From NCBI RefSeq assembly GCF_018326005.1, contig NZ_AP021903.1:1242001-1306000 (forward strand): DNA of 64,000 nucleotides, read 5' to 3'. Under the pieces are notes generated by a model that was given only the letters and a program-made list of their open reading frames with translations, searched no databases and was not told the origin of the DNA. The translations under genes and the position numbers were made by a program. Shown piece by piece: positions 47,370-63,363 of this stretch. The stretch comes from Pseudomonas sp. Seg1. GTDB taxonomy: Bacteria > Pseudomonadota > Gammaproteobacteria > Pseudomonadales > Pseudomonadaceae. The number at the start of each line of letters is the position of its first letter. Position 1 is the first letter of the stretch.

Positions 47370-48857
47370 TCAGAGATGCTGACCGTGGCGGGCCATGATG
47401 TGCCGCACCACGCTGTAGTCCTGAAGCGAATCGCTGGATAAGTCTTTGCCGTAACCGGAGCGTTTCAGCCCGCCGTGGGGCATTTCGCTGACCAGCATGA
47501 AATGGCTGTTGATCCATGTGCAGCCGTATTGCAGGCGCGCGGCAACCTGCATCGCCTTGTCCAGATTTTGTGTCCACACCGACGAGGCGAGGCCGTATTC
47601 CGAATCGTTGGCCCAGTCGACGGCTTGCGCGAGTTCGTCGAAACGGGTCACGGTGACCACCGGGCCGAACACTTCGCGCTGGACGATTTCATCGCTCTGT
47701 TTGCAACCGGCGAGCAGCGTCGGCTGATAGTAGAAACCGGCGCCGGAATGCACCGCCGCACCGGTCACGCGTTCGATGTGCGGCTGACCAAGGGCGCGTT
47801 CGACGAAACTGGCGACGCGGTCGCGCTGGCGGGTGCTGATCAGCGGGCCGATCTCGTTATCGGCATCACGTTTGCCGGCGAAGCGCAGGCTGCTGACTGC
47901 TGCGCCCAACTCAGCGACCAATTTGTCGTGGATGCCGGCCTGGGCGTAGATCCGGCAAGCAGCGGTGCAATCCTGACCGGCGTTGTAATAACCGTAGGTG
48001 CGCACGCCTTCGACGACGGCCTGGATGTCGGCGTCGTTGCAGACGATCACCGGGGCTTTGCCGCCGAGTTCGAGGTGCGTGCGTTTCAGGGTTTTCGCAG
48101 CGGCCTGGAGGATTTTCTGGCCGGTGACGATATCGCCGGTCAGCGAGACCATGCGCACTTTAGCGTGGCCGACCAGATGGCTGCCGACGCCTTCGCCGCC
48201 ACCGCAGATGATGTTGATCACCCCACGCGGGAGGATTTCGGCCAACGCAGGCGCCAACGCCAGAATCGACAACGGCGTGTGTTCGGACGGTTTGAACACC
48301 AGCGTGTTGCCGGCGGCAAGGGCCGGAGCGATTTTCCACGCGGCCATCATGATCGGGTAATTCCACGGCGCAATCGAGGCGACCACGCCAATCGGATCGC
48401 GACGGACCATGCTGGTGTAGCCGGGCAGGTATTCGCCGCTGAGCTGGCCGGTCTGGCAACGCACGGCGCCAGCGAAGAAACGGAACACATCGACGGTCGC
48501 GGTCAGATCGTCCTGACGAGCCAAGTGCAGTGGCTTGCCGCAGTTCAGCGATTCGAGGCGGGCGAGGTGATCGGCGTGTTTTTCGACGGCATTGGCGATG
48601 TCCAGCAACAGGTTGGAGCGTTGCTGCGGCGTGGTGCGCGACCAGCCGTCAAAGGCGCGGTGGGCGGCAAGGATCGCGGCTTCGACCTGCTCGGTGCTGG
48701 CCTCGGCGATGTGCGTGAGGATTTCGCCGGTTGCCGGGTTGAGGATCGGCTCGACGAAACCTTCCCCGGCGACCAGTTCGCCGTTGATCAACAACGCGGT
48801 ACACATCGGGGGTTGCACGCCAGCCATTTTCCGCGATCTCTTTTCTTGTGTATTCAT
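47370..48857 (-). CDS. Second aminoaldehyde dehydrogenase, paralogue of PatD
   Basis: A 495-residue aldehyde dehydrogenase very similar to the product of 41513-42937 (shared [49 protein letters not shown] and PHGG.K.SGYGKD). It has an N-terminal extension MNTQEKRSRKMAGVQPPMCT; AGGGAG lies five bases before this ATG, so the extension is kept. Probably oxidises a related omega-aminoaldehyde. It lies 84 bp upstream of ydcS on the same strand and may head the operon. Confidence 0.88.
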   Translation of the reverse strand: MNTQEKRSRKMAGVQPPMCTALLINGELVAGEGFVEPILNPATGEILTHIAEASTEQVEAAILAAHRAFDGWSRTTPQQRSNLLLDIANAVEKHADHLARLESLNCGKPLHLARQDDLTATVDVFRFFAGAVRCQTGQLSGEYLPGYTSMVRRDPIGVVASIAPWNYPIMMAAWKIAPALAAGNTLVFKPSEHTPLSILALAPALAEILPRGVINIICGGGEGVGSHLVGHAKVRMVSLTGDIVTGQKILQAAAKTLKRTHLELGGKAPVIVCNDADIQAVVEGVRTYGYYNAGQDCTAACRIYAQAGIHDKLVAELGAAVSSLRFAGKRDADNEIGPLISTRQRDRVASFVERALGQPHIERVTGAAVHSGAGFYYQPTLLAGCKQSDEIVQREVFGPVVTVTRFDELAQAVDWANDSEYGLASSVWTQNLDKAMQVAARLQYGCTWINSHFMLVSEMPHGGLKRSGYGKDLSSDSLQDYSVVRHIMARHGQHL

Positions 48858-48957
48858 GACGCTCCCTGTGACCGGGAGCCGAACGTCTTATAGATGCAGC
48901 AAGACTAGTGCGCGGCTCCGAGGTCGACAAATTCTAAATACTGAAGGTTGCATTCGA

Positions 48958-49872
48958 TTAAATAGATGGCTTGCGGCCGCCGTGGGGTTGTTCACGGGCG
49001 ACGGTCAGGAAGGGATCGACCAGAGCCGGGCGCGCGGTACCACGGCGCCAGGCCAGACCGACATCGAGGGTCTGATTGAGATCGGCAATGGGCCGCGCCT
49101 CGATGATGTCGCCCTCCAGTGACCATGGGCGATAGGTCATGTCCGGCTGAATCGAAACGCCCAAGCCCGCCGCAACAAGGCTTCGCACGGCTTCGGTGGA
49201 GGCGGTTCTCAGGGTGATTTTTGGTTGCAGCCCGGCGCCGCGCCAAAGTCGCTGAGCGTTGCGATCCATCTCATCGACGTTCAGTTGAATCAGCGGTTCG
49301 CGGGCAACGTCGGCGAGGTTGATGCTGTCGTGTTCCAGCAACGGATGCTGCGCCGGCAGCCATAAACGGTGTGGGGAGTGAGTCAGCACTTCCGTCTGCA
49401 AGGCATGGCGGTCTTCGAGGTTGGAGAGGATCAGCACACCGACATCAATCTCGCCGCTGACCAGCAAATGCTCGATGTAGGGCCGTTCATCCTCCATCAC
49501 TCTTATTTCAACGTTGGGATAGGCCCGTTGAAATCGAGTCAGTAGATCCGCGAGGTAATAACCGGCGACCAGACTGGTCACCCCGACGATCAACTGCCCG
49601 GCAACCTGATCAGTGCTCTGTTGCAGGCTGCGCTTGGCGTTGTCCACGGTCGCCAGAATCAGGTGCGCCTGGCGCAGGAATTGATGACCTTGGTGTGTCA
49701 GCGTCATGCCTTTAGCGTGACGGCTGAACAGGCTGACACCTATTTCTTCCTCCAGTTGCTGGATCGCCAGCGTCAGAGTCGATTGGGAGATAAACGCGGT
49801 TTGCGCGGCGGCGGAGATCGAGCCGGTTTCGGCCACGGCGATGAAGTGACGAATCTGACGCAAGGTCATCAT
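48958..49872 (-). CDS. LysR-type transcriptional regulator
   Basis: A 304-residue regulator: N-terminal winged HTH (MTLRQIRHFIAVAETGSISA; FISQSTLTLAIQQLEEEIGV) and a C-terminal inducer-binding domain. It is upstream of, and on the same strand as, the second aldehyde dehydrogenase, with 100 bp between. It probably controls the polyamine cluster. LysR genes are more often divergent from their target, so this is inference. The start ATG is set by the HTH alignment. Confidence 0.87.
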   Translation of the reverse strand: MMTLRQIRHFIAVAETGSISAAAQTAFISQSTLTLAIQQLEEEIGVSLFSRHAKGMTLTHQGHQFLRQAHLILATVDNAKRSLQQSTDQVAGQLIVGVTSLVAGYYLADLLTRFQRAYPNVEIRVMEDERPYIEHLLVSGEIDVGVLILSNLEDRHALQTEVLTHSPHRLWLPAQHPLLEHDSINLADVAREPLIQLNVDEMDRNAQRLWRGAGLQPKITLRTASTEAVRSLVAAGLGVSIQPDMTYRPWSLEGDIIEARPIADLNQTLDVGLAWRRGTARPALVDPFLTVAREQPHGGRKPSI

Positions 49873-50050
49873 GAGAAGGGGTACCCAGTGGGCGGTTTTT
49901 ATAGATTGGCCTGAGTGTATATCTATTTTCGCGAACGCCTTGCGCCTACTGAGCAACATCTGGAAGCACACTCGCAAACAGGGCAGGGGCACTTTCGAAC
50001 TAGGCTGAGGGCCTTATAGATCCGGATAACCCCTGTTTTGGAGGCGGAAC

Positions 50051-50770
50051 ATGAACACCCGTGGATTGCTCGATCAACTACTCAAATCCGGCCAGGATCT
50101 GTTGCAAAACAAGGCCGGCGGCTCGCAGAACAAATCGTCCGGCGCCTTGGGCAGCTTGCTTGGCGGATCATCCAGCAAAGGCGCCCTCGGCGGTCTGCTC
50201 TCAGGTGCGGGCGGTGGCGCATTGGCGGCCGGCGCAATGGGCCTGCTGCTCGGCAACAAGAAAGTGCGCAAGGTCGGCGGTAAAGTCGCAATCTATGGCG
50301 GCCTCGCCGCCCTGGGTGTGCTGGCCTACAAAGCCTACGGCAACTACAACGCCCAAAAAGGCACCGCACCGCAAACCGAGCCACAAACCCTCGACCGCTT
50401 GCCACCCGCGCAAGCCGAACAACACAGCCAGGCAATCCTCAAAGCCCTGGTCGCTGCCGCCAAAGCCGACGGCCACATCGACGACCGCGAGCGCCAACTG
50501 ATCGAAGGCGAGTTCAGCAAACTCGACAACGACCAAGAGCTACAACACTGGCTCCACGCCGAACTCAACAAACCTCTCGACCCCACCGACGTCGCCCGCG
50601 CTGCCAGCACGCCGGAGATGGCTGCGGAGATGTACATCGCCAGCGTGATGCTGGTGGACGAGGAGAACTTCATGGAGAAGAGCTATCTGGATGAGCTGGC
50701 GAAACAGTTGAAACTGGAGCCGGGGTTGAAGGTGGAGTTGGAGAAGCAGGTGCGGTTGGCGGTTGTTTAA
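50051..50770 (+). CDS. DUF533/TerB-like inner-membrane protein (YebE-like)
   Basis: A 239-residue protein: glycine/serine-rich N-terminal half (GALGSLLGGSSSKGALGGLL), one hydrophobic segment (KVAIYGGLAALGVLAYKAYG, about 78-97), and a helical TerB/DUF533 domain from about 120 (ALVAAAKADGHIDDRERQLI; MYIASVMLVDEENFMEKSYL). E. coli YebE is induced by envelope stress; function unknown. Preceded by GGAGG and followed by a terminator. Confidence 0.87.
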   Translation: MNTRGLLDQLLKSGQDLLQNKAGGSQNKSSGALGSLLGGSSSKGALGGLLSGAGGGALAAGAMGLLLGNKKVRKVGGKVAIYGGLAALGVLAYKAYGNYNAQKGTAPQTEPQTLDRLPPAQAEQHSQAILKALVAAAKADGHIDDRERQLIEGEFSKLDNDQELQHWLHAELNKPLDPTDVARAASTPEMAAEMYIASVMLVDEENFMEKSYLDELAKQLKLEPGLKVELEKQVRLAVV

Positions 50771-50784
50771 ACAGTAGAAAAAGA

Positions 50785-50815
50785 AAAATCGCAGCTTTGA
50801 GCTGCGATTTTTTTT
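50785..50815 (+). terminator. Rho-independent terminator after the DUF533 gene
   Basis: AAATCGCAGC-TTTGA-GCTGCGATTT then T-run. It separates the core genes from the T6SS island; the A-run may also stop transcripts coming from the island. Confidence 0.92.
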
Positions 50816-50825
50816 GCAGTTTTAT

Positions 50826-51778
50826 GGTGATGGAAATGTACTTGTCGATTGCATCGCGAGAGGTATCCCTTAGGGCGCATGTGGAAGTAAGCGACAGTAC
50901 CCTCTTCAAACTCCTCAGGTTAAGGTGTCGGGAGTGCTGAAGGGCCTTCTTCCATGTAGACGCGTATGGCTTTCCATTCGGAGACAGTCTCATGTACGAA
51001 GGAGTGATCCGCACGGCAGATGCGACGGCATAGATGGAAAAAATCGACAGTACCTTCCTCAAACTCATCTGATTAATCTGGTGGTAAGGAAACCATTCCT
51101 TCCTCCATGTAGACACGAATTGCCTCCCACTCAGAAACGGCAAGACTCAAGTTGCTACTCGGGATCACAGACCACAGCACATCACCTGTGTTGGCATCTC
51201 TTTAGCCAATCAGTAATTTAAATTCAGGCATTACTGAATATTGAGTAATGAGCTTTCCAACAGATGCGCAAACAATGACATCCTCCCAAGGTATATAGCA
51301 CCGGTTATCGTGTTTTTTTGGGGGTGAATACAACTTCGCGGCGCTCTCGAGTGAAACGGATGGGTGGCTAAAGAGATACTTGGTGCGCTGCCTGAAAGAA
51401 AAAATAAATGTATGTTAGAGAGATTGATCTGATAATCGACCACAGCACGCGGTTGAAGAAAAATTTCAACCAAGCATAAAGGAAGGGTTCTTCATACCTT
51501 CTAATCCAAGACGCGAATCCTGAGATAAAGAATAATAGTGTCACGATTAGCATTATCGACCCGATGCCGGTTCGTGACATAAATTCAAAATTACCTTGCC
51601 CGATAGCGAAGTCCAGAAAAGTTTAGTTCACATTACGATGCAGTTGACGTGCACTAAACGGTGGCATTCCTGTGGGGATGGGCCGTGGCGAAATATAAAC
51701 CACTTCAATGCCGGATTTTGTTTCGAAGTCTCCGGCGTGAGGAAGTCGGTCGTATTTATCGTCAAAGGCACTATTCAT
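50826..51778 (-). pseudogene. Decayed paralogue(s) of the 349-residue membrane protein
   Basis: The reading starts with an ATG overlapping the stop of the intact gene (TGATG) and gives MNSAFDDKYDRLPHAGDFET.., clearly like MLENKYDRLPHAGDVE of the upstream gene. An in-frame TAA follows RQLHRNVN; then TFLDFAIGQGNFEFMSRTGI and the membrane segments continue in frame to further stops, PPIRFTRERREVVF and WEAIRVYMEEG. The WEAIRVYMEEG/EFEEGTV segment then appears a second time (WKAIRVYMEEGPSAL near 50960-50930). So this is a dead copy plus a fragment of another copy. The exact 3' limit is uncertain. Confidence 0.8.
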
Positions 51779-52827
51779 CAGTTGGTGGATTCGGTCTCGC
51801 GAGATGGCTCTGCAAGCTTCACCTTGAAGTAATCCAACAGGTTCTGACCTTTGGCGAAGGCCTTCCTGATTTCGGCGCTCTCCTTGAGCAACGCTTCGCT
51901 TGGCATAGCGTATTGCTCGAGGGGGAGAGATCTTGACCATTCCAGGATTTCTCTAGGGAAGGCGGCTTTGGGGCGGTTATTGATCCAGGCTGCGATGTAA
52001 CAAGGTATCGTCCAGCCACTGAAAAACTGAATAATCAAAAATCCCCAGATATACCGAAGGAATGAATGATGAGAACGGTACCCTTGTCTACACATATGAA
52101 AATACGCGACTGATCCTGCTTCGAATTCATCTGATTGCTTCATGGTTAACGCTTGAGGCCCTTCCTCCATATAGACACGTATCGCCTCCCACTCAGCTAT
52201 GGCTTGGTTCAAATTTCCACTTGGAACACTGACCCAAAGCACATCGCCATTTTTGTCGCGAAGTCCGATCATAAGTTTGAACTCGGGGATTACAGCATAT
52301 TGGGTGATCAGCTTGCTAACTGAAACGCTCGCGATAACCTCTTCCCACGGCACATAACGAGGGGTCATTCCCTTCTTGGGAACATAAACCACTTCCCGAC
52401 GCTGGCGATTGAAGCGTATGGGAGGTTGATTGCTGGCTTGGCGAATTGCAAAGAAAAATACGCAAAGGTAAAGAGTTGCAAGTGCTCCCACAAAACCCCA
52501 GACAGCAATGCTTGTAAAGAAATCAAGCCAACTACTCCAAAACGGCTCTACATCTCTTCTTATCCAAGACCCAAACCCCGTTGTAAAAAACAGAAAAATT
52601 AACAGGAACATTACCGCCCCAATTCCTGCTCGGGCCATAAACTCAAAATTTCCTCGGGAGATGGCAAAGTCTAAGAAAACCTCATTGGCATAGCGGTGCA
52701 GTTGGCGCGCACTGAAAGGTAGCACTCCGGTCGGTACCGGTTTCGGTGATAAATAGACTATCTCAGTTCCCGGTTCTCTCTCGACATCACCTGCGTGAGG
52801 CAGCCGATCATATTTGTTTTCAAGCAT
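51778..52827 (-). CDS. Polytopic membrane protein, probable orphan T6SS immunity (DUF6708-like)
   Basis: A 349-residue protein with hydrophobic segments at about 66-90 (AGIGAVMFLLIFLFFTTGFG), 102-130 and 255-280. Between them is a soluble part with the pattern PPIRFNRQRREVVYVPKKGM and YVPWEEVIASV, which I associate tentatively with DUF6708. Many proteins of this kind lie beside T6SS effectors. Its ATG overlaps the 117-residue gene by eight bases; a dead paralogue follows it. No partner effector is visible next to it. Confidence 0.62.
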   Translation of the reverse strand: MLENKYDRLPHAGDVEREPGTEIVYLSPKPVPTGVLPFSARQLHRYANEVFLDFAISRGNFEFMARAGIGAVMFLLIFLFFTTGFGSWIRRDVEPFWSSWLDFFTSIAVWGFVGALATLYLCVFFFAIRQASNQPPIRFNRQRREVVYVPKKGMTPRYVPWEEVIASVSVSKLITQYAVIPEFKLMIGLRDKNGDVLWVSVPSGNLNQAIAEWEAIRVYMEEGPQALTMKQSDEFEAGSVAYFHMCRQGYRSHHSFLRYIWGFLIIQFFSGWTIPCYIAAWINNRPKAAFPREILEWSRSLPLEQYAMPSEALLKESAEIRKAFAKGQNLLDYFKVKLAEPSRETESTN

Positions 52828-53173
52828 GCAGATTCTCCGGTTTCACGTCGACCCACTGTAATGGTATTCGACTGGCTCGGACGGATGGCTCGCCATTAAC
52901 GACGCTATTTTTTCCAGCCCCAAGAAAACTTAAGGATATGGGGTAATACAGGTATTCGTCCGTAGCTTTCAGGGGAGCATTCGCAGTGTCAGGCTGAACA
53001 CTCAATCGCAGTTTAAGTTGAGACTGCTCACCGCACCAGTTTTCAGGTACGACGAGCCGAGCGATAAGGGGGTTAATATTTGCTAAGCTTAATGCATGTC
53101 TGACATATGTTTGCTCATTGGTCAGTTCAGGTTTTAAACTAAGACCTAGTTGCTGTTTTTTTTGATCTTGCAA
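52820..53173 (-). CDS. Uncharacterised soluble protein, TTG start
   Basis: A 117-residue frame (MQDQKKQQLGLSLKPELTNE; LIARLVVPENWCGEQSQLKL; DEYLYYPISLSFLGAGKNSV). No membrane segment or recognised motif. The only available start is TTG at 53173, with no good ribosome site, seven bases after the upstream gene stop. It may be a real coupled gene, or the surviving C-terminal part of a larger protein such as a lost effector. The eight-base overlap with the next gene supports translation. Confidence 0.5.
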   Translation of the reverse strand: MQDQKKQQLGLSLKPELTNEQTYVRHALSLANINPLIARLVVPENWCGEQSQLKLRLSVQPDTANAPLKATDEYLYYPISLSFLGAGKNSVVNGEPSVRASRIPLQWVDVKPENLHA

Positions 53174-53179
53174 AAATAA

Positions 53180-53911
53180 TTAATTTTTGTCGCGGCCCTC
53201 TTCAAAATCTGTAGACGGCCGAGTAAATTTCTTTGCGAGTACTAAGAATTTGTCAATATCAGCTTTATGTAGGTGTACCGGTATATAAAGGTAGTTATCT
53301 TCAAGGCGCATTTCTGGGTTGTGACGGCGCTGAATGGCAACTAAGTTCCGCTTTCTATCGGTAATTACTAGATTTGGTCGATCCCAAGTGAATCTTAAAC
53401 TTTTTGTTGGGTTTTTCCAATTTAAAAGATGTATGGCGCTCACAATAGAAATTCCAGCGGGACCGGCCAGTAGCCATGCTGCTGATGGATTAAAGATAAT
53501 AAATATGAAAACTGTGAAGATGAATATCCCAGATAGCCATTTGAAGAAGGTTCCCGCAAACTTCGGGAAGTGGGTTTTGTATTTGACATCGATTTCTTTG
53601 TCGGTAACAACATAGTGGTATATATATTTTTGCCGTATAACTAAGGTCCAGAAATATAGAGTCATACATAGACATACAATTCCGAAGTGTGCGCTTAGGA
53701 ATGTTGAGCGTTGCCGTAGTGGGAGCTCAAGATAAAATATTTCATATATTCCATTTAAGAGTGCGGTTAGTCCGATTAGGGTAAGTACAATCATGCCCAT
53801 GTCCATGATTGAAGTATTGTGAGGTAATGCTTTGATTGTCCAAGACATTTGGACATCGCCCGTGATTGGTGCTTGTTCGATGGCGTTTTTGTCTGGTATT
53901 AAAGTAGTCAT
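53180..53911 (-). CDS. Four-helix membrane protein of unknown function, probable immunity gene
   Basis: A 243-residue protein with four hydrophobic segments (about 37-58, 70-95, 125-140, 145-165) and a soluble C-terminal part (RFTWDRPNLVITDRKRNLVA; RLEDNYLYIPVHLHKADIDK). GGAGG lies six bases before the ATG. The layout (helices, then a beta-rich soluble part) parallels the immunity candidates upstream, but sequence similarity is not obvious. AT-rich relative to the core genes. First gene of the orphan group 53911-50826. Confidence 0.6.
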   Translation of the reverse strand: MTTLIPDKNAIEQAPITGDVQMSWTIKALPHNTSIMDMGMIVLTLIGLTALLNGIYEIFYLELPLRQRSTFLSAHFGIVCLCMTLYFWTLVIRQKYIYHYVVTDKEIDVKYKTHFPKFAGTFFKWLSGIFIFTVFIFIIFNPSAAWLLAGPAGISIVSAIHLLNWKNPTKSLRFTWDRPNLVITDRKRNLVAIQRRHNPEMRLEDNYLYIPVHLHKADIDKFLVLAKKFTRPSTDFEEGRDKN

Positions 53912-54071
53912 TTAACCTCCTTAAGCGGAATTGGCACCACCGCGCCCTGCATTCGACCGCCTAATGTTTGTACTAGAAAGTGCTAACGCCTTGATGCGTG
54001 TGTCTTTTTGATCCTTTACCCCTTCGCTAGATAGTTCTAGTTGATATCTATACCTCGATCTCCTTCGTTAG

Positions 54072-54102
54072 AAAAAAACATCGACCAGAGCTAGCCGATG
54101 TG
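54072..54102 (-). terminator. Copy of the hcp terminator after the second hcp fragment
   Basis: On the minus strand ACATCGGCTAGCTCTGGTCG then ATG and seven T. It matches the hairpin after the intact hcp gene (62287-62313) with a few changes and lies at the same distance from the hcp stop codon. It would end the vgrG-effector-immunity transcript. Confidence 0.75.
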
Positions 54103-54120
54103 TGAAGCGATCAATCGTAA

Positions 54121-54288
54121 TTAGACGACTGGAGCACGCCAGTCATCGGAACCCGAAGTACCGGATATTGCATGGGTCCAGGTGATTTTGCGGTAGGTGA
54201 ACTGCACTTCTTCGAGGTGGGTGAAGTGCGAGTTGCCTAGATCCTGGCAGTTGTGCATTTTGTTGTTGATGGCGACATAGGTAATCAT
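54121..54288 (-). pseudogene. hcp 3' fragment (residues 121-171)
   Basis: Reads MITYVAINNKMHNCQDLGNS and on to DDWRAPVV then TAA. From VAINNK it matches Hcp residues 121-171 with only three changes (P132L, E156A, V157I). Homology continues past the stop for about 55 bp through the terminator. It begins with an ATG, so it could be translated as a 55-residue peptide, but it lacks the first 120 residues of Hcp and cannot make a ring by itself. Confidence 0.85.
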
Positions 54289-54317
54289 GAACGATGAATA
54301 TTATCGAAGTCATCGGC

Positions 54318-55514
54318 TTACGGAGTGGCATGTATCCCGTTTGCTTCTTGAGCGCGGTAATACGCCTCAATCGTCAACGATGGATCGATACGCGCTTTAA
54401 CGATGCAGGGTTCTTTTTGCCACGGATATTCCTGCAACTGCTTGGCCAGAGCCTTCTGGCCGCCTGTGATCCATCCTTTCTCCGACTGATCTCTCCATCG
54501 TCGTGGGTTGCGGCCAGTTTTTGCGTCGTGGGCCACTGTCACGGGATCAAGATGTCGACTTTGCTCAAGCACAGGCAGGTCAGGTAGTGGCTGCGTGATA
54601 TCCATGTAACGCTGTAGACAATCCCAAAAAGCGAGTGTGTTGGCCTGATCCAATCCCAGCGAGTGAACCTTGGTCGCCAAGCAAATTTTGGTGTCGGTAT
54701 AGCGATGATGCAGCCACAACGCGTAGTCGTGGGAGCCATAACCGCTTGGAAGCAGTTGCAGCACCGGATCGAACTCTTCAAATGGGGCAACGAAGAGTCG
54801 ACGGAAGCGACGCTTGAAACGGAGCATACCGTCAAGGCGGTTGAACTCGCTTCCGTCGTGGGTGCTCAACTTGCTATAAACCCACAGCAGGCAATTGAAG
54901 CCAACAGCACCCAAAAAGTAAAGAAGGGTGCCGAACCATAAGTAAATATGTAGCTTATCACTACCCCATAGCGCCCCCGTCTGTGAGTAGGCAGATATGG
55001 ATAATGTAAAAAAACCTATTATTTGCAAGTAATGAACGGCTATTTTTCCGTTCATGTAAAGAGCGAGTGAGCTAATCATTAGCGCGGCAACTAGAAACGA
55101 TGACACTAGAATCAGAAATGCATTGAAGTCTTTACGTCCGGTGTCAGGTAGGAACTCAACTATGAGTCCCGTTCCCCAAAGAACCCATATGAAGAAAAAG
55201 CACATCATTTTACATGCAAGAATAATCTGTGGAATCTTGCTTGAATTTTGAAAGCGCCAGCGCTTGGCGTCGCAATAGGTTCCTTCCTCTTTTCCTTGGT
55301 TTTGTTGTTGCCGATATATCGTTCGCTCTTCACCTTGTAACTGATTATTTATCTCGGTCGCAGGTTCTAAGTTAGCGTAATGACCAAAGGCTAGATGCGT
55401 GTCAAAGTTCCCTGACCTATTAGCATCCTCAGCCCATTTCGGAGGAGGTAATGGTGAATCGCTATTGCTGCGGTAGGCACCTGTTGCATAAGGTATGTTT
55501 GCCCTACCAGTCAT
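54318..55514 (-). CDS. Probable T6SS immunity protein 2, membrane
   Basis: A 398-residue paralogue of the upstream gene. Shared blocks include FGHYANLEP, the motif NSSKI, HDGSEFNR, then ALWLHHRYTD, LAFWDCLQRYMDITQPLPDL and the end GIHATP. Four hydrophobic helices occupy about 95-235. Its ATG overlaps the stop of the first hcp fragment by ATGA. Compared with the paralogue, an AAA codon has become TAA at the end, removing about 11 residues; the sequence after the stop still matches. Paired with a pore-like effector, an inner-membrane immunity role is likely but inferred. Confidence 0.7.
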   Translation of the reverse strand: MTGRANIPYATGAYRSNSDSPLPPPKWAEDANRSGNFDTHLAFGHYANLEPATEINNQLQGEERTIYRQQQNQGKEEGTYCDAKRWRFQNSSKIPQIILACKMMCFFFIWVLWGTGLIVEFLPDTGRKDFNAFLILVSSFLVAALMISSLALYMNGKIAVHYLQIIGFFTLSISAYSQTGALWGSDKLHIYLWFGTLLYFLGAVGFNCLLWVYSKLSTHDGSEFNRLDGMLRFKRRFRRLFVAPFEEFDPVLQLLPSGYGSHDYALWLHHRYTDTKICLATKVHSLGLDQANTLAFWDCLQRYMDITQPLPDLPVLEQSRHLDPVTVAHDAKTGRNPRRWRDQSEKGWITGGQKALAKQLQEYPWQKEPCIVKARIDPSLTIEAYYRAQEANGIHATP

Positions 55515-55642
55515 TTAGAAAGCTCGGCTGTCCAGGTGATTTTGCGGTAGGTGAACTGCACTTCTTTCAGGTGGGAGCAGTGCGAGTTGCCTGGATCCTG
55601 ACAAGAGTGCATTTTGTTTATATTGGCAATATAGATAATCAT
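55511..55642 (-). pseudogene. hcp 3' fragment inserted between the two immunity genes
   Basis: A 43-codon frame MIIYIANINKMHSCQDPGNS..KEVQFTYRKITWTAELSK that matches about residues 119-154 of Hcp and then diverges. Both ends are joined by ATGA overlaps: its ATG overlaps the stop of immunity gene 1, and its TGA overlaps the ATG of immunity gene 2. It may be just a recombination scar, or a coupling minigene kept because it relays ribosomes. Confidence 0.8.
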
Positions 55643-56892
55643 GGGCGGTGAATATTATCGTAATCAGTTGCTTTAGGGGTGGAATTAATGCCTTTCTTCT
55701 CTTGAGAATGATAGTAGTCTTCGATACTCAACGTGGAATCAATTTCGGCCGCCAAAATGCAGGCTTCAGTTTGCCAAGGATAATTCAGGTTTTTTTTCAT
55801 CATGGCAGGTCGTTCGGTGCGATCCCATACTTTGTATTTAGTATCGCGCCAACGGCGTGGTGGTCGGTTGGAGAGTTTGTCATGAGCCGCAGTGGTCGGA
55901 TCTAGATGGCGGAATTGTTCAAGGAGTGGTAATTCCGGCAATGGTTGACTTACGTCCATATAGCGCTGCAAGGTATCCCAGAATGCCAAGCATTCTTCAC
56001 GACTCATTCCTAACGATTGGACCTTGCCTCCAAGAAAAATCTCGAAATCACTGTAACGGTGATGTAACCAAATAGCCGTACTGCTGTTGCCGTGGGGAGA
56101 TGGTCGCAATTCCATCGATGCATCGAATTCATAAAATGGCGCAGAGAAGGCTGGACGAAAACGGCGAGCGACGGTGAGTATTCCCGTTTTCCTATTGAAT
56201 TCGCTGCCATCGTGCTGGAAAAATTGTAGATACTTAACAAATAAGTAGTCCCATCCTACCAGTCCCATGACTACGCTAACTACCATGGCTGCACTTCCTA
56301 TCAGAAGATTTTCGCCGTACACAGGATTGCCATAATCGATAACTGATGCCGTAGTGCATGTCAGGATGCCAAACGACATTTGGGTTAGGTATTTTTTATA
56401 TTTTGGTTCGTCAGACCACATGAACCAGGAGCTAAATCCCATCATTAGAAGGGCGAGTAGTGGAATGATTGAAGCGATCGCCATTGAGGAGTACGTACTA
56501 TGGTTCTTCATCATGTGATCTAGAGGTCGGGATATTGCCCCGGACATAACTAACGTCCAAAATATCCAAGGTACAAAGGCTATGCAACTCCATTTTAAAA
56601 ATGGGTGCAATATTTGGATTTTACTTGAGTTGTCAAAGTGCCAGTGTTCATTGGTTTTTGAGTAGGTTTCGTTTTCATCTTTAGTTTTCTCACGGTTATT
56701 GAGTTGATGAAGCTGTGCACTTACGTCCTGCCAGGGCTCAAGATTTGCATAGTTTCCCCAGTGGAGAGTGCTTCGAAGTAATCCGAAACTCTTCGATTCT
56801 TCCGTCCGTTTGTGAGCAGGTAATTTAGGAATTACCTGACTATTGAACGCCGCAATTCCGTATCTATTGGCTTGAAGTTCTTTAGGGTTCAT
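55639..56892 (-). CDS. Probable T6SS immunity protein 1, membrane
   Basis: A 417-residue protein directly after the effector gene, joined by an ATGA overlap. It has four hydrophobic helices at about 105-235 (CIAFVPWIFWTLVMSGAI; IASIIPLLALLMMGFSSWFM; and two more), then HDGSEFNRKTGILTVARRFR and a C-terminal part with AIWLHHRYSD, LAFWDTLQRYMDVSQPLPEL and RHLDPTTAAHD. Position, membrane nature and duplication suit an immunity protein protecting the inner membrane. The ATG of MNPKELQANRYG is chosen because of the coupling; an upstream frame overlaps the effector by 11 more codons. Confidence 0.72.
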   Translation of the reverse strand: MNPKELQANRYGIAAFNSQVIPKLPAHKRTEESKSFGLLRSTLHWGNYANLEPWQDVSAQLHQLNNREKTKDENETYSKTNEHWHFDNSSKIQILHPFLKWSCIAFVPWIFWTLVMSGAISRPLDHMMKNHSTYSSMAIASIIPLLALLMMGFSSWFMWSDEPKYKKYLTQMSFGILTCTTASVIDYGNPVYGENLLIGSAAMVVSVVMGLVGWDYLFVKYLQFFQHDGSEFNRKTGILTVARRFRPAFSAPFYEFDASMELRPSPHGNSSTAIWLHHRYSDFEIFLGGKVQSLGMSREECLAFWDTLQRYMDVSQPLPELPLLEQFRHLDPTTAAHDKLSNRPPRRWRDTKYKVWDRTERPAMMKKNLNYPWQTEACILAAEIDSTLSIEDYYHSQEKKGINSTPKATDYDNIHRP

Positions 56893-59800
56893 ATTTTTAA
56901 GAAATCTCTCTGTTCTATCAACCAATAAGGCACGTCGTCTGCCCCATCTTTATTAGTTGGCTGAGGACCAGGGTATGGCTCCCATGAGCTTGGCTTCGGT
57001 TGTGGTAAAATAATATTACGGTATTCAGGGAATGGATCTTCTGCTAGGCATTGAGGTTGTCCAAGCTCAAATTGCCCGTAAACTTTCAGGCTGTATTCGC
57101 AAGTGGTAAAGTTGCGTCTAATGTTATTTTCCTCTATTACTTGATTTTGATGGGCAAGTATGTAGATTATGCGTGAATCATCTAGTACTACGCCGCCAAG
57201 TTTTTCACGAGTTATGTCCACTGGTGGTCGGTAGTTCCATCCCGTATTGTTTTGTAGTGTTCTTACTATTTCTTTAGCTCTTATTTTGAAGTTTATTCCG
57301 TTTTCGAAGTGACCTAGCAGAGGTGTCTGTAGCTCAACAATCCAGTCGTATGGGTTTAACTTTACATTGAGCTCATTAGCTGTAAGAGTTATTTTTTCTT
57401 GTTCTTCTTTCTTTGCTTCTTTTTGCCAGTCACGCAGTCGCGTAATTTTGAATCGTGGTGCTCCCAAAAAGCCTAGTAATTGTTGGTAGGCAATTACTGG
57501 GTTGTTCAAGTGTGTCAGCCCCTTGCTGTCGCCAAATGGACCTTGTTTAACAACTTGCTCCAGTGGGCTATTGGTTAGTAATACGCTGCCGATCAAGCCA
57601 GTGACGAATAAAATAACACCTGCAGTTAATATCCACGGGCTGGCTAACAATCCTATTGAATAAAAAGCCCACATTCCAGACCCCAGCGCGGCTATACTGT
57701 AGGCCATCGCTACTTTATTCTCTCCTTGCTGGAAAGAACGGCCTGCATCCCATATGAACAGCACTGTGGTTGCAGCAATGGCCACGACTGAGCCTACACG
57801 TGTCCAATTTAGCCATGTATCTCCTGTCCTTTTAAGGAGGTTTTGTGCTAGACGTTTGCTTAAGTTTTTTGTATCAAAACGGCCATCCTCCCAGAACGCA
57901 AGCCAAGGTGATTTATTCGCCTTTGAGTTTTCTAAAATCTTTAATGCCACATTGTTTGCTGCCAATCCGAGGTCAGCTGACGCAGCTAGCACGCCAACGC
58001 CAAATCTAGCGCGCTCGCCATTGTCATAGATCGATTTAGCACCCACCGTATTAGCATATAAACTAAATGCCGCAAATGCCGTTGCTATCCCAGGAAGAGC
58101 GATATTTTTTTTCAGTTTCTCTGCCGATGCCATAGCAGGCATCGCCATGCGCCAACGCATATATTCTTGAACAATCGGATCATCTGCAGAACCTGCCACC
58201 ACCATTACATATCCAAGCTCTTTTTTAGCGAAGGACAGGCGTTCCGCTACTTTGCCGCTTGTCGTGCCAACGATTTGTCCGTTTCTTCCTTCAAAATTCG
58301 CCACAAGGAAGTTTTTACGCGTGAGAGTAGTTCGTTCGTCCGGCGTGACTCCGAAACTCAATCCGGCGCCATGTATACCCAATACAACCAGGTTCTGACC
58401 CAAGGCTTCACCTTGAGTGATCAACCTCAGATTTTTTGCTTTACTGGAAAGTTTGTTGGCGAACGTAAAGCTTGGTCCGAATACTCTGACCATTTCAACT
58501 TGAGTAATATTTTCGCTCTCAGCTACTTTTTTTGCTATGGCAGCGGTGGCGTGGGCAATATGCGCGGCTACTTCATCTACTGCGAGCGCTACGTTCTGTC
58601 CGATGTATAAATTGCTGAACAATGATAGAGAACTTAGCCCAAGGTTTTCCGGATTCGCTTCTTTTTCAGTACTCTTGAATGCAGCAAGTTTGCTCGCTGT
58701 CGCTGGTAATTCACCGTTAGTCGTCGGCAGCAAATCTTTGGTCAGAGCGTTAGTTGCGGCAGCCAAGTCTCTACTCAGCTTTAACACCGCCGCACTGACT
58801 TTGCTGTCCTCTGGCTCAATACACCGGGGATCAGATTTTTTTGCCGAGCAACCTAGTATTTCCAACAGTTCAACCAATAGAGCGTAGGGCTCTAACAGCC
58901 GTTCATCCTTACTGTAGGTGTAGTCATTCCAGATTGAAGGCAAGCTTTTGTTAACTAAGTCAAGCATGCGTTCTTGCTGGATATAGATAACTTCTCGAGC
59001 TTTTTCACGCTCAGCATGGAGGGTGGTCTTTTTTAATCCATCCTCATCGACGTGCGGTAGCAAGTCTTTCAAACTGCCTGCAGGTGACAGCACTTCTTGA
59101 TAGAGGAGTTCGGCGTAGTGACCAAAAGGTTGATATGGAACAAGTGCGTTGAGAGTTTGAAGCAGTTCGACTGCCAATCTGCACTGAGCGACAGCATGAC
59201 GGAATGTAAACAATGGATCGTCGACGATGAACCCCACCAAATGCGGGTAGTCACGGAGTTTATACTCGCTGAGCACATCGGTACTTGCGGGTAAAGCATC
59301 GGGAGGCGAGGGCGGGGTAGTGTTCAGATGCCCCGCGAGCTCTTGTTGGTACTTTTCCAGTTGTTTGATGAGTGTAGTAGCTGGCAGAGTCGTCAAATCG
59401 GGAGTGAATAGACTTGGATCTTCCAGCAAGGTTTCTACGTGCAGTTCTCGCGCTCGGAGTCCTTTGGTAATACCCTTTATTGGTGTCGCCGGGTAAATCA
59501 AAGAAGCCTTCCAATGCTGCGTCTCACCTGCAGTCGCCGCCCAGGCAGGTGCCATATTTTGACTGCGAGCCTTGATCCGCCCCGCATCCTTTTCGAGCCA
59601 TTCGATGTACTCCCACGTCCAAGGCAGCTCACTGTAAGCCATGCTCAGTTGATCGCCAACGAATCTACCCTGTAGAAACATCGGAACCAGTATCAAGAAC
59701 TGTTTAACGCACACTGGGTCGCGCTTGTCTGCATCACCTTTTTTCTCGGCAATCTTGCGCCAGTGGGCTACATCAACTTCGAACAACTGACCTTTGCCGT

Positions 59801-60113
59801 CGGTTTCCAGTTCTCGCCACAGTTTGTTTTTTAGGAACACATAGATACGGCCGGGGCGGGGGAGTGCGCCCTTCAGCGTTTCAGTCAGTTTGTCATGCCC
59901 AGGCAGCCGCGCCAGCGGTGTGACTGCAAGCAAGGTGTTGTGCTGATACTTCTCTTCTTCTTCAGTGGTCCTAGCATCGACCATGATCGGAATCTGCAGC
60001 TTGCCGCCATCGGTGCGTTCTACGTTAAGCGCCAACCTCGATTTTTGCGCATTTTCGTAGTCAGTCTTCTTGCGCGTCCCTTCGGTAATGGACTTGTCCT
60101 TGAACTCACTCAT
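56889..60113 (-). CDS. T6SS effector with MIX-like N-terminus and membrane-spanning C-terminus
   Basis: A 1074-residue protein directly after vgrG (ATGA overlap). The first 170 residues carry the three MIX marks in order: VTPLAR (64-69), RPGRIYVF (86-93, with Arg where the core motif has Trp) and YSELPWT (160-166). Residues 170-660 are mostly helical and soluble. Hydrophobic segments follow at about 672-690, 772-789, 801-822 and 824-847, then a soluble C-terminal 220 residues (PYDWIVELQTPLLGHFENGI; ending VPYWLIEQRDFLKI). The plan resembles pore-forming or membrane-disrupting T6SS effectors such as VasX or the MIX-class Tme proteins; the activity is inferred. No PAAR domain and no adaptor gene (DUF4123, DUF1795, DUF2169) adjoin it. 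The 3' half is visibly more AT-rich than the 5' half. Confidence 0.8.
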   Translation of the reverse strand: MSEFKDKSITEGTRKKTDYENAQKSRLALNVERTDGGKLQIPIMVDARTTEEEEKYQHNTLLAVTPLARLPGHDKLTETLKGALPRPGRIYVFLKNKLWRELETDGKGQLFEVDVAHWRKIAEKKGDADKRDPVCVKQFLILVPMFLQGRFVGDQLSMAYSELPWTWEYIEWLEKDAGRIKARSQNMAPAWAATAGETQHWKASLIYPATPIKGITKGLRARELHVETLLEDPSLFTPDLTTLPATTLIKQLEKYQQELAGHLNTTPPSPPDALPASTDVLSEYKLRDYPHLVGFIVDDPLFTFRHAVAQCRLAVELLQTLNALVPYQPFGHYAELLYQEVLSPAGSLKDLLPHVDEDGLKKTTLHAEREKAREVIYIQQERMLDLVNKSLPSIWNDYTYSKDERLLEPYALLVELLEILGCSAKKSDPRCIEPEDSKVSAAVLKLSRDLAAATNALTKDLLPTTNGELPATASKLAAFKSTEKEANPENLGLSSLSLFSNLYIGQNVALAVDEVAAHIAHATAAIAKKVAESENITQVEMVRVFGPSFTFANKLSSKAKNLRLITQGEALGQNLVVLGIHGAGLSFGVTPDERTTLTRKNFLVANFEGRNGQIVGTTSGKVAERLSFAKKELGYVMVVAGSADDPIVQEYMRWRMAMPAMASAEKLKKNIALPGIATAFAAFSLYANTVGAKSIYDNGERARFGVGVLAASADLGLAANNVALKILENSKANKSPWLAFWEDGRFDTKNLSKRLAQNLLKRTGDTWLNWTRVGSVVAIAATTVLFIWDAGRSFQQGENKVAMAYSIAALGSGMWAFYSIGLLASPWILTAGVILFVTGLIGSVLLTNSPLEQVVKQGPFGDSKGLTHLNNPVIAYQQLLGFLGAPRFKITRLRDWQKEAKKEEQEKITLTANELNVKLNPYDWIVELQTPLLGHFENGINFKIRAKEIVRTLQNNTGWNYRPPVDITREKLGGVVLDDSRIIYILAHQNQVIEENNIRRNFTTCEYSLKVYGQFELGQPQCLAEDPFPEYRNIILPQPKPSSWEPYPGPQPTNKDGADDVPYWLIEQRDFLKI

Positions 60114-62200
60114 GCCTTGTCCTCTGGCCCCAACAATTGCAATTGACTACCCAAATCCGGGTCTCCCCACACGTCTACGATGAGCGCCTCTTTGCCTTTC
60201 TCGCTGGTTTTTCTTGGTGCGGCCGTGTTGACCGGTGCGTTGCCCAGCGTTTGCCCGACCGGTGCGGTATCGGCCGGCTTGGGCGGTACAGGAAGTACCG
60301 CAGCAGCGCCAGTACCGCTTCCGGGGCTGCCGCCGGAGTTGATGTTGATCACCGGGCCGCTCATGGTAACGCCAGCGGCGTCGATCTTGATAAAGCTGCC
60401 CCCTCCGATCAGCGTCAGCTCAGCTCCCGCTTCCAGCACGACTTTGATGCCGCTATCAAGATGGATTTCCTGCCCCGCATCAATGAACTGCCCTGTACCA
60501 ATCTTGATGTGCTGATTCACTCCCACCGTCAGGTGATCATTGGCCTGCGCTTCAACCTTGCGGTCCTCAAAAACCGTGTGGTGTTCTTCGGCCTTGAATT
60601 CCGTGTAGCTGTTCTTCTCGACCGTGTCGTGACGCTCGTTGCCGACCCGAATCTTCTGGTCGTGCTCGATGTTTTCGTCCCAATCGCGCTGGGCATGCAG
60701 GTAGATCTGCTCCTGACCTTTCTTGTCTTCGATGCGCAGTTCGTTGTAACCGCTGCCGCCCATGGAGCTCAGGGTTTTGAAGGTGCTGCGCGTCTTGTTC
60801 GCCGGCAGTTCGTAGGGAACGGTGTTTTCCTTGTGGTACAGGCAGCCGCTGATGAGCGGTTGATCGGGGTCGCCTTCGAGGAACGTCACCAGTACTTCCA
60901 TGCCGATGCGCGGGATGGCGATGCCGCCGTACTGGGCGCCGGCCCAGGCGCTGGAGACGCGGAGCCAGCAGCTGGTCTTGTCGTCGGCCTGGCCTTCGCG
61001 GTCCCAGTGGAACTGGACCTTGACGCGGCCGTACTGGTCGCAATGGATCTCTTCACCTTTGGGGCCGGTGACCACGGCGCTCTGGCTGCCGAGGATGCGC
61101 GGTTTCGGGTGGCGCAGGGGCGGGCGGTTGGGCACGTCCCACGGGGTGGCCTGGAAGCGGTTGCGGTAGCCCTGGTGGAAATCGTCTTTCAGCGCGGTGG
61201 TGTCGCTGGTCACCGACTCTTCGAGGACTTGCGGCTGTTTGCCTTCGTGGAGGACTTCGGTGAGCAGCCAGAGGTCGTTCCACTTGGCTTTCGGGTGCGC
61301 AGTGAGTGCGAGGAAATGGCCGCTGACCAGCAACGGTTGATCGCTTTTGCCTTCGGCGAGTTGGAAGTCGCTGCGGTGGCGTTCGAGGGCGCGTTTGGCC
61401 AGGTGCTTGCCGCGTTCGCGGTCGACGAAGCGGCCCGGGTAGTCGTAGTCCTCGAGGTCGGGCAGGGCGTCGCCACGGTTTTCGCTTTCGAGGGTGATTC
61501 GCGGTTTTTCGAAGTCGTAATCGCGACGCGTGGTGCGGCTGGTGCGGGTTTCCAGGCGCAGGTCGAAGCGCTTGATCACCGGGTCGCTGGCGGCCATGCC
61601 GGAGTCTTGCTGATAGGCCACGGGTTTGAGTTTCGGGAACACCGTCTGGTCATCGCCGAAGATCAGTTTGTGCGCGGTGGCACTGTGCTGGAAGTGGTAG
61701 TGAATGCCTTCTTCCTCGCACAGGCGCTGGATGAAGTGCAGGTCCGACTCGTCGTACTGCACGCAGTAGATGCGCTCGGGGTAGATCGAGTGGGTCTGGA
61801 ATTCGTAGGCGTTGCTCTGGATGCCGTGCTCTTCGAGGACCATGCCGATGATTTTCGGCACGCTGAGGTTCTGGAAGATGCGCTGGTTGATGCGGTGCGC
61901 GAGGTACGCCAGTTGCGGGCGCAGGGTCACGGAATAACGGGTCAGGCGCTTGCCCGAGTCGCCTTGCGCGGCGCGGTAGATCTGGCCGTGGATGCCGCTG
62001 CCGTCGGGCGACAGTTGCAGGAAGGCCGGTTTGTGCAGGAGGGTTTCAAGGTCCAGCGACGGCTGCTCACTGACCAGTTCCACCTCGAAGACAAAAGGCT
62101 GGCTGATGGCCTCCCGGCCTTGCAGGGTAAACACCTGAAAGTCGGCGGAAAGACCTTCGATGGTCAGGGCAAAGTGAGTTTCGTTGGCCGGCGCGAACAT
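60110..62200 (-). CDS. vgrG: T6SS spike protein VgrG
   Basis: Tip protein of the T6SS tube (tssI). The 696 residues have the gp27-like part (FALTIEGLSADFQVFTLQGR; VQYDESDLHFIQRLCEEEGI), the gp5/OB part (SAWAGAQYGGIAIPRIGMEV; VTFLEGDPDQPLISGCLYHK) and the beta-needle region (about 490-630). The C-terminal 70 residues are a proline/alanine-rich linker plus a short tail (EALIVDVWGDPDLGSQLQLL), probably an effector-docking tail. The ATG of MFAPANETHFALTIEG is set by family alignment. It lies after the hcp terminator, so it needs its own promoter or readthrough. Confidence 0.95.
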   Translation of the reverse strand: MFAPANETHFALTIEGLSADFQVFTLQGREAISQPFVFEVELVSEQPSLDLETLLHKPAFLQLSPDGSGIHGQIYRAAQGDSGKRLTRYSVTLRPQLAYLAHRINQRIFQNLSVPKIIGMVLEEHGIQSNAYEFQTHSIYPERIYCVQYDESDLHFIQRLCEEEGIHYHFQHSATAHKLIFGDDQTVFPKLKPVAYQQDSGMAASDPVIKRFDLRLETRTSRTTRRDYDFEKPRITLESENRGDALPDLEDYDYPGRFVDRERGKHLAKRALERHRSDFQLAEGKSDQPLLVSGHFLALTAHPKAKWNDLWLLTEVLHEGKQPQVLEESVTSDTTALKDDFHQGYRNRFQATPWDVPNRPPLRHPKPRILGSQSAVVTGPKGEEIHCDQYGRVKVQFHWDREGQADDKTSCWLRVSSAWAGAQYGGIAIPRIGMEVLVTFLEGDPDQPLISGCLYHKENTVPYELPANKTRSTFKTLSSMGGSGYNELRIEDKKGQEQIYLHAQRDWDENIEHDQKIRVGNERHDTVEKNSYTEFKAEEHHTVFEDRKVEAQANDHLTVGVNQHIKIGTGQFIDAGQEIHLDSGIKVVLEAGAELTLIGGGSFIKIDAAGVTMSGPVININSGGSPGSGTGAAAVLPVPPKPADTAPVGQTLGNAPVNTAAPRKTSEKGKEALIVDVWGDPDLGSQLQLLGPEDKA

Positions 62201-62281
62201 CCGTTGTTCCTCGTGCTGTACAGCGGCGCTCGTCGACGGCCGCAAAGCGGGTCAACGTACGCGAAATTCTGGAGGGGCGTA

Positions 62282-62313
62282 AACAACATCGACCAGCAGA
62301 GCTGGCCGATGTG
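62282..62313 (-). terminator. Rho-independent terminator of hcp
   Basis: Minus-strand hairpin ACATCGGCCAGC-TCT-GCTGGTCGATGT (62313-62287) followed by TGTTTA. Since vgrG lies downstream it may be a partial terminator that lets much more Hcp than VgrG be made. Confidence 0.8.
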
Positions 62314-62331
62314 TGAAGCGATCAGCCGTAA

Positions 62332-62847
62332 TTAAACGACTGGAGCACGCCAGTCATCGGAACCCGAAGTACCGGATACTTCGTGGGTCCAGGTGATTTT
62401 GCGGTAGGTGAACTGCACTTCTTCCAGGTGGGTGAAGTGCGAGTTGCCTGGGTCCTGGCAGTTGTGCATTTTGTTGTTGATGGCGACGATGATCGCGTCT
62501 TCCAGTTTGGTGGTGTAGTAGTGCTCTTGAGTACCTTGAGCCGAAGTGCGGTACCACTGGATAACGATTTCGCTCATGCGCTCGCCCGAGGTCAGAGCGG
62601 CTTGCAGCAGAGGCGAAGCCTTGTCGTAGACCTTGGTGATCACAACAGGTTTGTGAACGCGCTGACCGGTTGGCTGACCGGATTGCGGGTCACGCGGGAT
62701 GATCACGTCGTGGCTGAAAGCCTGAACCATGACCTGGTCTTCGTGGCCTTCCTGGTAGGTGTTGCCAACGGAGTCGGCGGTGAAAGCGCCTGCAGTGATC
62801 AGGCCTTGTTTTTCGCCGGTAACCGACATGTACGCTGGTGTTGCCAT
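62332..62847 (-). CDS. hcp: T6SS tube protein Hcp
   Basis: A 171-residue tube subunit (tssD). The pattern MATPAYMSVTGEKQGLITAG, DQVMVQAFSHDVIIPRD, HKPVVITKVYDKASPLLQAA, YTTKLEDAIIVAINNKMHNC and the C-terminal beta strands is typical of the Hcp family that is secreted as hexameric rings and can carry small effectors. AGGAG precedes the ATG. Two fragments of its 3' end recur downstream at 54121-54288 and 55511-55642. Confidence 0.96.
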   Translation of the reverse strand: MATPAYMSVTGEKQGLITAGAFTADSVGNTYQEGHEDQVMVQAFSHDVIIPRDPQSGQPTGQRVHKPVVITKVYDKASPLLQAALTSGERMSEIVIQWYRTSAQGTQEHYYTTKLEDAIIVAINNKMHNCQDPGNSHFTHLEEVQFTYRKITWTHEVSGTSGSDDWRAPVV

Positions 62848-62917
62848 GGGATGCTCTCCTTGCGGATAAATTTAAGGTGCCCGGGAGGCGAAATCGCCCG
62901 GTGGGTGCCTGACTGTT

Positions 62918-62933
62918 ATCAAGGAGCGTGCCA
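62918..62933 (-). promoter_or_regulatory. Sigma-54-like promoter of hcp
   Basis: Minus strand TGGCACGCTCCTTGAT. It matches the -24 half TGGCACG exactly; the -12 half reads TTGA instead of TTGC. Spacing is correct (GG, ten bases, GA). Transcription would start near 62908, about 60 bp before hcp. Several Pseudomonas T6SS operons depend on RpoN. Confidence 0.6.
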
Positions 62934-63016
62934 GCTTTTGTGAGGTCCCCGGGAGCCGGGGGTGAAACCGCTCTGGCCTGCGCTTTGTAGGATTTTTCAG
63001 CGGGGATTCAGGGTAA

Positions 63017-63062
63017 AAGTGCGCAAGAAGTTGCGCAGTACTGCGCAACTTCTTGCGCACTT
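63017..63062. promoter_or_regulatory. Perfect 46-bp palindrome made of two 18-bp sites upstream of hcp
   Basis: The two arms (63017-63039 and 63040-63062) are exact reverse complements. Each contains an 18-bp site that is itself an inverted repeat, TGCGCAAGAAGTTGCGCA at 63020-63037 and TGCGCAACTTCTTGCGCA at 63042-63059, spaced 22 bp. They lie about 110-155 bp upstream of the inferred hcp start, the usual position for activators of sigma-54 promoters. Confidence 0.65.
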
Positions 63063-63100
63063 GGCTACAGGCCTTGTGGCGTATGGGCTGTAGCCAAGTT
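63059..63100. repeat. Inverted repeat beside the hcp upstream sites
   Basis: ACTTGGCTACAG (63059-63070) and CTGTAGCCAAGT (63089-63100) are exact inverse arms with an 18-base loop. It joins the paired palindromes and the third site. It may be a second factor's site or a structural element. Confidence 0.55.
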
Positions 63101-63123
63101 GGTAGCTGAAAATTGAAAACAAG

Positions 63124-63141
63124 TGCGCAACTTCTTGCGCA
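63124..63141. promoter_or_regulatory. Third copy of the 18-bp palindromic site
   Basis: TGCGCAACTTCTTGCGCA, identical to the copy at 63042-63059. The three sites together suggest cooperative binding. It lies closer to the divergent chemoreceptor gene, whose promoter (TATACT at 63325-63330) is about 190 bp away. Confidence 0.6.
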
Positions 63142-63363
63142 TCATGGCTCTTCGCCGCCATTGGCCGGTCACGAATGACCGATCCATCGCCTCCTTTTGT
63201 CATTCCGTCACTGGTACGCCAGCCCCGGATTGGCGGACAGTCCCACCCCAGAGCCGCCCGGCAAACCACGCCGGGCCGGCCCGGGGGTTAAAAAGCGTCT
63301 TATTAATGAAACACTGCCCTCGGCTATACTCCCCGCATTTCGACCTAGGCACGAGGAATCACT

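Follow-up and report, generated by a model that had tools for sequence, protein, structure and literature searches.

Hcp Remnants Behind Two Immunity Genes

Two pieces of the 3′ end of hcp lie behind paralogous immunity genes in a type VI secretion system (T6SS) island of Pseudomonas sp. Seg1, and they are probably scars of the successive displacement of hcp-vgrG-effector-immunity modules broken inside hcp. The island occupies the minus strand of the window (the whole 64,000-nt stretch analyzed) and starts at its left edge with an intact hcp (171 aa; 62847–62332; Pfam T6SS_HCP, NCBIfam TIGR03344). This is followed by vgrG (711 aa; 62245–60110; Pfam and NCBIfam VgrG models), an effector gene (1074 aa; 60113–56889) with only sub-cut-off matches to the BTH_I2691 family and VasX N-terminal models, and the presumed cognate immunity gene imm1 (428 aa; 56925–55639), a type also placed behind the effector in relatives. 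Next come an open 43-codon frame containing piece 2 (55511–55642; hcp-like part 55530–55618, corresponding to hcp nt 373–461), the orphan immunity gene imm2 (398 aa; 55514–54318), with relatives behind an effector in loci L108 and L114/L145, and piece 1 (54276–54073; hcp nt 361–567), with an open 55-codon frame at 54288–54121 and, at its end, the same hairpin with a T run (54078–54101) that is found behind hcp. The array continues with two immunity-like genes, Imm3 (53911–53180), 93% identical in Pseudomonas sp. TH43 and without Pfam or NCBIfam match, and Imm4 (52827–51778), matching DUF6708 with 26.5 bits (cut-off of 27); a broken copy of an Imm4-type gene (50992–51766) lies behind the latter. 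No tRNA genes were found in positions 48000–64000 of the window. The island thus has one intact effector-immunity module with orphan immunity genes behind it, and the remnants between the immunity genes are hcp stumps and, in TH43, also vgrG remnants.

An earlier note on this DNA had described two 3′ pieces of hcp after paralogous immunity genes, with the intact hcp beyond vgrG and the effector, and our comparisons bore out this description. Piece 1 (204 bp) is 93% identical to hcp nt 361–567 (E 3e-86), including the hairpin behind hcp, and at the protein level shows 94% identity to Hcp residues 121–171, in agreement with the near-identity and the retained terminator noted before. The nucleotide alignment of piece 2 (89 bp, 55618–55530) gave 91% identity to hcp nt 373–461 (E 8e-31), and the protein match, formerly put at about residues 119–154, covers Hcp residues 119–158 at 75%. 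The pieces are real and specific; a search of the whole 6.6-Mb genome, with all 36 first-look candidates scored, found four intact hcps and only these two pieces. The hairpin of piece 1 is no evidence by itself because 13 sites with a hairpin and a T run were found against 11.2 expected by shuffling.

The end of imm1 is an ATGA, in which its stop overlaps the ATG of the 43-codon frame, which goes on as hcp from about hcp codon 119, and this frame ends in a second ATGA, where its stop overlaps the start of imm2; the last ca. 17 bases of piece 2 ahead of imm2 are not hcp. In TH43, imm2 ends in the same ATGA way, and the 55-codon frame behind it extends as far as the regular stop of hcp; the imm2 of the window is eleven codons shorter at its end, and there too the 55-codon frame is present. 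The last codons of imm2 in TH43, whose bases are the same in the window, read DNIHR, like many ends of the imm1 type, in place of the DFDD that most imm2-type ends close to this one have.

The unit of immunity gene plus hcp piece does occur twice in tandem, as had been noted, and the two units align across the immunity/hcp junction over 253 bp with 74% identity; their immunity proteins are only 42% identical, so the duplication is not a recent one. A tandem duplication of the unit within the strain, followed by divergence, would account for the alignment through the junction and for the ATGA start of the small frame common to both units. We consider this origin improbable given the identity of the proteins, the presence of both junctions already in TH43 and the occurrence of each immunity type alone with its own effector in other strains, from which it follows that the types are older than the junction.

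Junctions in Other Strains

In strain TH43 (genome G011; loci L036, L053, and L073), the island lies between the same flanks as that of the window and already contains both of its junctions. Piece 1 of TH43 extends across the spacer between hcp and vgrG as far as the start of vgrG, and vgrG residues 105–667 follow, as a decayed gene. Beyond it lie Imm3, a second vgrG remnant and an imm2-type gene adjoining the right flank; the imm2 copy of this strain is split by about 1.4 kb of other sequence. The match between the window and TH43 resumes at Imm3 and ends at 53106, the start of the second TH43 vgrG remnant. Judging from this alignment, the window island is a reduced version of the TH43 island.

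Junctions of other kinds were found in four more genomes. G049 has an Imm4-like gene, then hcp nt 340–567, and then, at the usual spacing, an apparently intact vgrG (residues 1–667 matched, in a frame of 693 aa); G382 has a junction of the same kind with a shorter piece. Conversely, G138 and G242 have a broken 5′ end of hcp behind the immunity gene in place of a 3′ piece. The hcp boundaries vary across genomes (nt 361–568, 361 or 373–461, 340–567, 337–430, or a 5′ end). The continuation of the piece into vgrG in TH43 and G049 indicates that it is the stump of a gene and, together with the 5′ ends in G138 and G242, that the pieces are stumps of resident hcps cut at differing places.

Occupation of the Island and Frequency of the Pieces

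To compare the same locus among strains, the right flank was searched in 56 genomes chosen for hcp similarity, with matches in 54 (weak in G354 and G237). Of these places, 18 were fetched: in 11, an hcp lies no more than about 15 kb from the flank, and in seven there is none at that distance; the former, plus the window and TH43, make up 13 occupied islands. At the left edge, all 13 carry a single intact hcp; further hcp pieces are confined to the window and TH43. In L145 (genome G254) a single module of hcp, vgrG, effector, and imm2-type gene fills the whole space between the flanks. Among the places lacking hcp, five are empty, with flanks 122–193 bp apart (L146, L148, L149, L150, and L152), and L147 and L151 have 5.2 and 1.2 kb between flanks.

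The frequency of the pieces was estimated with hcp searches of 149 genomes, the union of sets of 99, 22 new and 28 new genomes, counting as a piece any match starting after hcp nt 300 and away from contig ends. Pieces of the 3′ end were present in four of the 149 genomes (the window, TH43, G049, and G382), a count from which stumps may be missing because of the limited number of candidates scored per genome (six in the set of 99, seventeen in the other two); a further run on 398 genomes, with two candidates scored per genome, was left out of it. The six pieces found in total are all on the same strand as an intact hcp, 7–10 kb downstream of it and directly behind an immunity-like gene. They represent only two independent events, since one junction is common to the window and TH43, and another to G049 and G382. 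Within 600 bp of 47 ends of imm1- or imm2-type genes there were four hcp 3′ pieces (window and TH43) and two 5′ pieces, and none in the other 41, one of which (L058) has only 83 bases left on its contig. For Imm4-like genes, two of 35 ends were followed by a 3′ piece, in a sample of 20 selected loci that includes some overlapping stretches of one genome.

Other partial matches to hcp were set aside. Those at contig ends (G055, G374, G230, and, in the 398-genome run, G372) were left out of the count; those in G056, G022, G207, and G111 cover most of Hcp as protein and were treated as diverged hcps, as were the matches in G262, which are two pieces of one place. There were also 5′ matches in G350 and G105, from the 149-genome search, as well as a small one in G005, and an hcp 5′ fragment in G008 is an artifact, ending at an N in the assembly. 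Matches of 30–37 bp to hcp nt 336–375, seen in nine of the 99 genomes, were taken as chance similarity of coding sequences after inspecting three of them (L064–L066). The letters around the match in L064 and L065 resemble those of L066, where the frame holding it presumably encodes a TonB-dependent receptor.

These counts bear on the proposal of the earlier note that the module grows or swaps by recombination at a short hcp-derived anchor, much as at an attachment site; in this reading, cargo would go in and out there, with hcp 3′ pieces bounding each unit. The two units with the same junction and the stump starts within hcp nt 337–373 in four genomes fit such an anchor; this clustering of starts is not significant as a sign of a site. 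The island comparison contradicts it, with no hcp piece in 11 of 13 occupied islands nor at 41 of 47 immunity gene ends, and so no constant short core. An Imm1 relative with 93% identity (strain GM80; L059, on the same contig as L107) and Imm2 relatives with 59–70% identity also lack an hcp piece within 600 bp, an outcome that the earlier note itself had named as refuting its proposal. Additionally, the stumps run on into vgrG, hcp 5′ ends are found in the same position, the exchanged tract ends inside imm1 (see below) and, in Pfam and NCBIfam family searches, none of the eight proteins scanned in this island (51778–62847 of the window) matched an integrase family. An attachment-like anchor is therefore very unlikely; what stands of the proposal is that recombination shapes the array at this hcp/vgrG island.

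Effector Partners and the Exchanged Tract

The orphan gene imm2 has effector partners elsewhere: genes of its type adjoin an effector in L108 and in L145, the latter being this very locus. The orphan Imm1 of GM80 clearly has an effector tail (residues 1042–1073) in front. The stretch of 17 bases from the end of the hcp match (nt 461) to the start of imm2 (55515–55531, minus strand) may be what is left of the end of a displaced effector gene, since in relatives the stop of an effector overlaps the start of an imm2-type gene in this manner; we regard the likeness as suggestive only. A first comparison used 12 hand-picked tails, all of which matched in at least 7 of 16–17 positions, and was rerun on all 25 placeable imm2-type starts. 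Of the 25, thirteen reached 7 of 17 positions, a level attained by 10% of the 10,333 background sites; the best match was 12 of 17 (L109), to which 0.1% of the background sites came up. The 12 starts below 7 of 17 are behind another immunity gene or belong to more distant relatives, and L106, among the 13 above, has no effector-like sequence in front.

The identity profile between the window and TH43 in 150-bp bins is 85–99% from hcp to about effector residue 650 and 59–76% in the rest of the effector; it is 39–59% over the first ca. 600 bp of imm1 and then 97–100% over the last 400 bp up to the junction. Piece 2 is about 83% identical, and there is a second stretch of low identity inside imm2. 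From this profile, the exchanged stretch comprises the effector C-terminus and the immunity N-terminus. Its right edge is inside imm1, not at the hcp piece; as far as the alignment tells, the homology at the edge of the exchange is the immunity gene's own 3′ end. In positions 58150–56100 of the window, compared with TH43 (L036), the effector C-terminus and the N-terminal half of the immunity protein diverge jointly while the sequence on either side is sharply conserved, which would fit the exchange of both as a single specificity cassette.

This genome's second hcp is followed by an island (L038 and L106; G000:C1, ca. 2,469,500–2,482,600) with five Imm4-like genes in a row plus an imm2-type gene (68%); no hcp piece was found there. 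In L111 (genome G108; 1497–2933) two complete hcps of different types are in tandem ahead of one vgrG, and in G034 (L044, L045, and L138) both vgrG genes seen match in two or three pieces in different frames, so that either the genes or their assembly must be faulty.

The 43- and 55-Codon Frames

Changes in the pieces between the window and TH43 were compared with those in the intact hcp, which has no nonsynonymous and 10 synonymous changes. Piece 2 shows 13.5 nonsynonymous and 4.5 synonymous changes (dN 0.13, dS 0.18; dN/dS ca. 0.74, from two strains only) and looks free of constraint, close to neutral. Piece 1 shows 6 and 5, respectively (dN 0.05, dS 0.14; dN/dS ca. 0.33, from 11 changes in two strains). 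A search of 5.77 billion proteins with the 43-residue product retrieved three sequences, the query among them. P0003 shows no difference from the TH43 frame; P0002 shares the start of the piece 2 frame and continues in hcp beyond nt 461, as would be expected of an earlier state of piece 2. Given the near-neutral changes of piece 2 and its having so few relatives, it is hardly credible that the two frames are functional small genes whose translation is coupled to that of the immunity genes, in spite of the ATGA overlaps at both ends of piece 2 and of both frames being open in the window and in TH43.

Four other short proteins (P0004–P0007) are Hcp C-terminal sequences, three of them labeled as partial Hcp of Pseudomonas aeruginosa or unnamed, on contigs of up to 6.5 Mb; they hint at hcp 3′ stumps elsewhere.

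A Model of Module Displacement

The displacement of modules probably explains the pieces. In its support, the stumps of TH43 and G049 run on into vgrG, the locus is found in a series of states, imm2-type genes pair with effectors elsewhere, and each island examined has a single intact hcp at its left edge. In this model, an incoming hcp-vgrG-effector-immunity segment would use the conserved hcp/vgrG region to pair with the resident island. The other end of the segment, immediately beyond its immunity gene, would join inside the resident hcp with little homology. At the left edge, the new module would then be the intact one, and its immunity gene would be followed by the 3′ stump of the resident hcp, still joined to the old vgrG and cargo, which would decay while the immunity genes persist. 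Piece 1 would be a stump whose vgrG was lost in the window strain. Piece 2 would be a stump cut short, probably when a later segment whose end lay inside it became joined to the last codons of the effector once ahead of imm2. The identical junction in both units would require one more step, an exchange between immunity 3′ ends. We infer the mode of joining (homology-facilitated illegitimate recombination), the order of events and the origin of the effector tail.

Three results count against displacement. The same junction base lies behind two immunity genes with 42% identity, hence the need for the extra exchange; the effector-tail match is short, with 12 of 25 starts below the 7 of 17 positions; and hcp 3′ pieces occur in only four of 149 genomes, as two independent junctions.

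Around vgrG, the effector gene, imm1, piece 2, and imm2, the intact hcp and piece 1 form a direct repeat (204 bp, 93% identity, with an identical run of 43 bp), and through it ordinary recombination could remove the whole weapon module at once. It is conceivable, although rather doubtful, that the stump makes the island self-editing, switching an attacker to a partly immune bystander within a population; if so, the deletion would restore an almost normal hcp and leave the older immunity genes in place. More generally, the series at one locus of empty site, single module, stacked array, and reduced array makes the steps of displacement readable, and the stumps of hcp and vgrG could mark the number of modules that an island has carried. 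Short repeats at the borders of cargo, in turn, need not be attachment sites.

A Palindrome Upstream of hcp

Upstream of hcp lie three copies of the 18-bp palindrome TGCGCAAGAAGTTGCGCA (63020–63037, 63042–63059, and 63124–63141). The genome has 13 exact copies, 12 of them as three upstream of each of its four hcps. Allowing two mismatches, 29 of 33 best-match hcp loci have three copies, at about −290, −210, and −190; only two copies were seen in three loci, one of which is interrupted by the end of its contig, and no copy in the remaining one. What we take to be a sigma-54-like TGGCAC element is closer to hcp than the palindromes. Away from any hcp (L153, ca. 10441; L154, ca. 6549), the only exact copy is upstream of a frame that we assume to be aldo/keto-reductase-like, and a copy with one mismatch lies elsewhere. 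The letters of the palindrome were not found in the open-licence literature. The palindromes are possibly activator sites; in P. aeruginosa, H2-T6SS genes are reported to be under the control of RpoN and Sfa2 (PMC8855297).

Comparison with Known Systems

Titles and abstract openings of the open-licence literature on hcp remnants, orphan immunity genes and vgrG islands gave no description of hcp stumps in immunity arrays, which is a weak ground for their novelty. Recombination hot spots are known in vgrG loci of agrobacteria, and, unlike here, hcp stumps behind immunity genes are not described in the accessible part of that study (PMC8546570).

The closest parallel is the sequential displacement of T6SS effector genes in Vibrio cholerae, which gives rise to arrays of immunity genes (Kirchberger et al., 2017; PMC5361080). 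As proposed in that paper, the incoming module pairs by its conserved upstream part and its far end is joined by homology-facilitated illegitimate recombination, in which the old effector is displaced and the immunity gene belonging to it retained. Like the present array, those of V. cholerae start at the 5′ side with one intact effector-immunity module followed by orphan immunity genes; what remains of displaced genes lies in between, and there is no integrase. They differ in that the remnant there is effector 3′ sequence, whereas here it is hcp and, in relatives, also vgrG, which places the break further upstream and implies the displacement of a whole hcp-vgrG module. A far end joined inside the resident hcp would give the order of new immunity gene, old hcp 3′ stump and old vgrG, that is, the state seen in TH43 and G049. 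The displacement of Rhs C-terminal ends, as mentioned in the same source, is also alike in its constant 5′ part, its replaced 3′ part, and the permanence of the displaced ends; however, it occurs within one gene family, whereas the remnant here comes from a tube gene located several genes ahead of where the effector ends. For Pseudomonas, this reading puts the break of T6SS module displacement inside hcp, a process known in kind and new in this detail.
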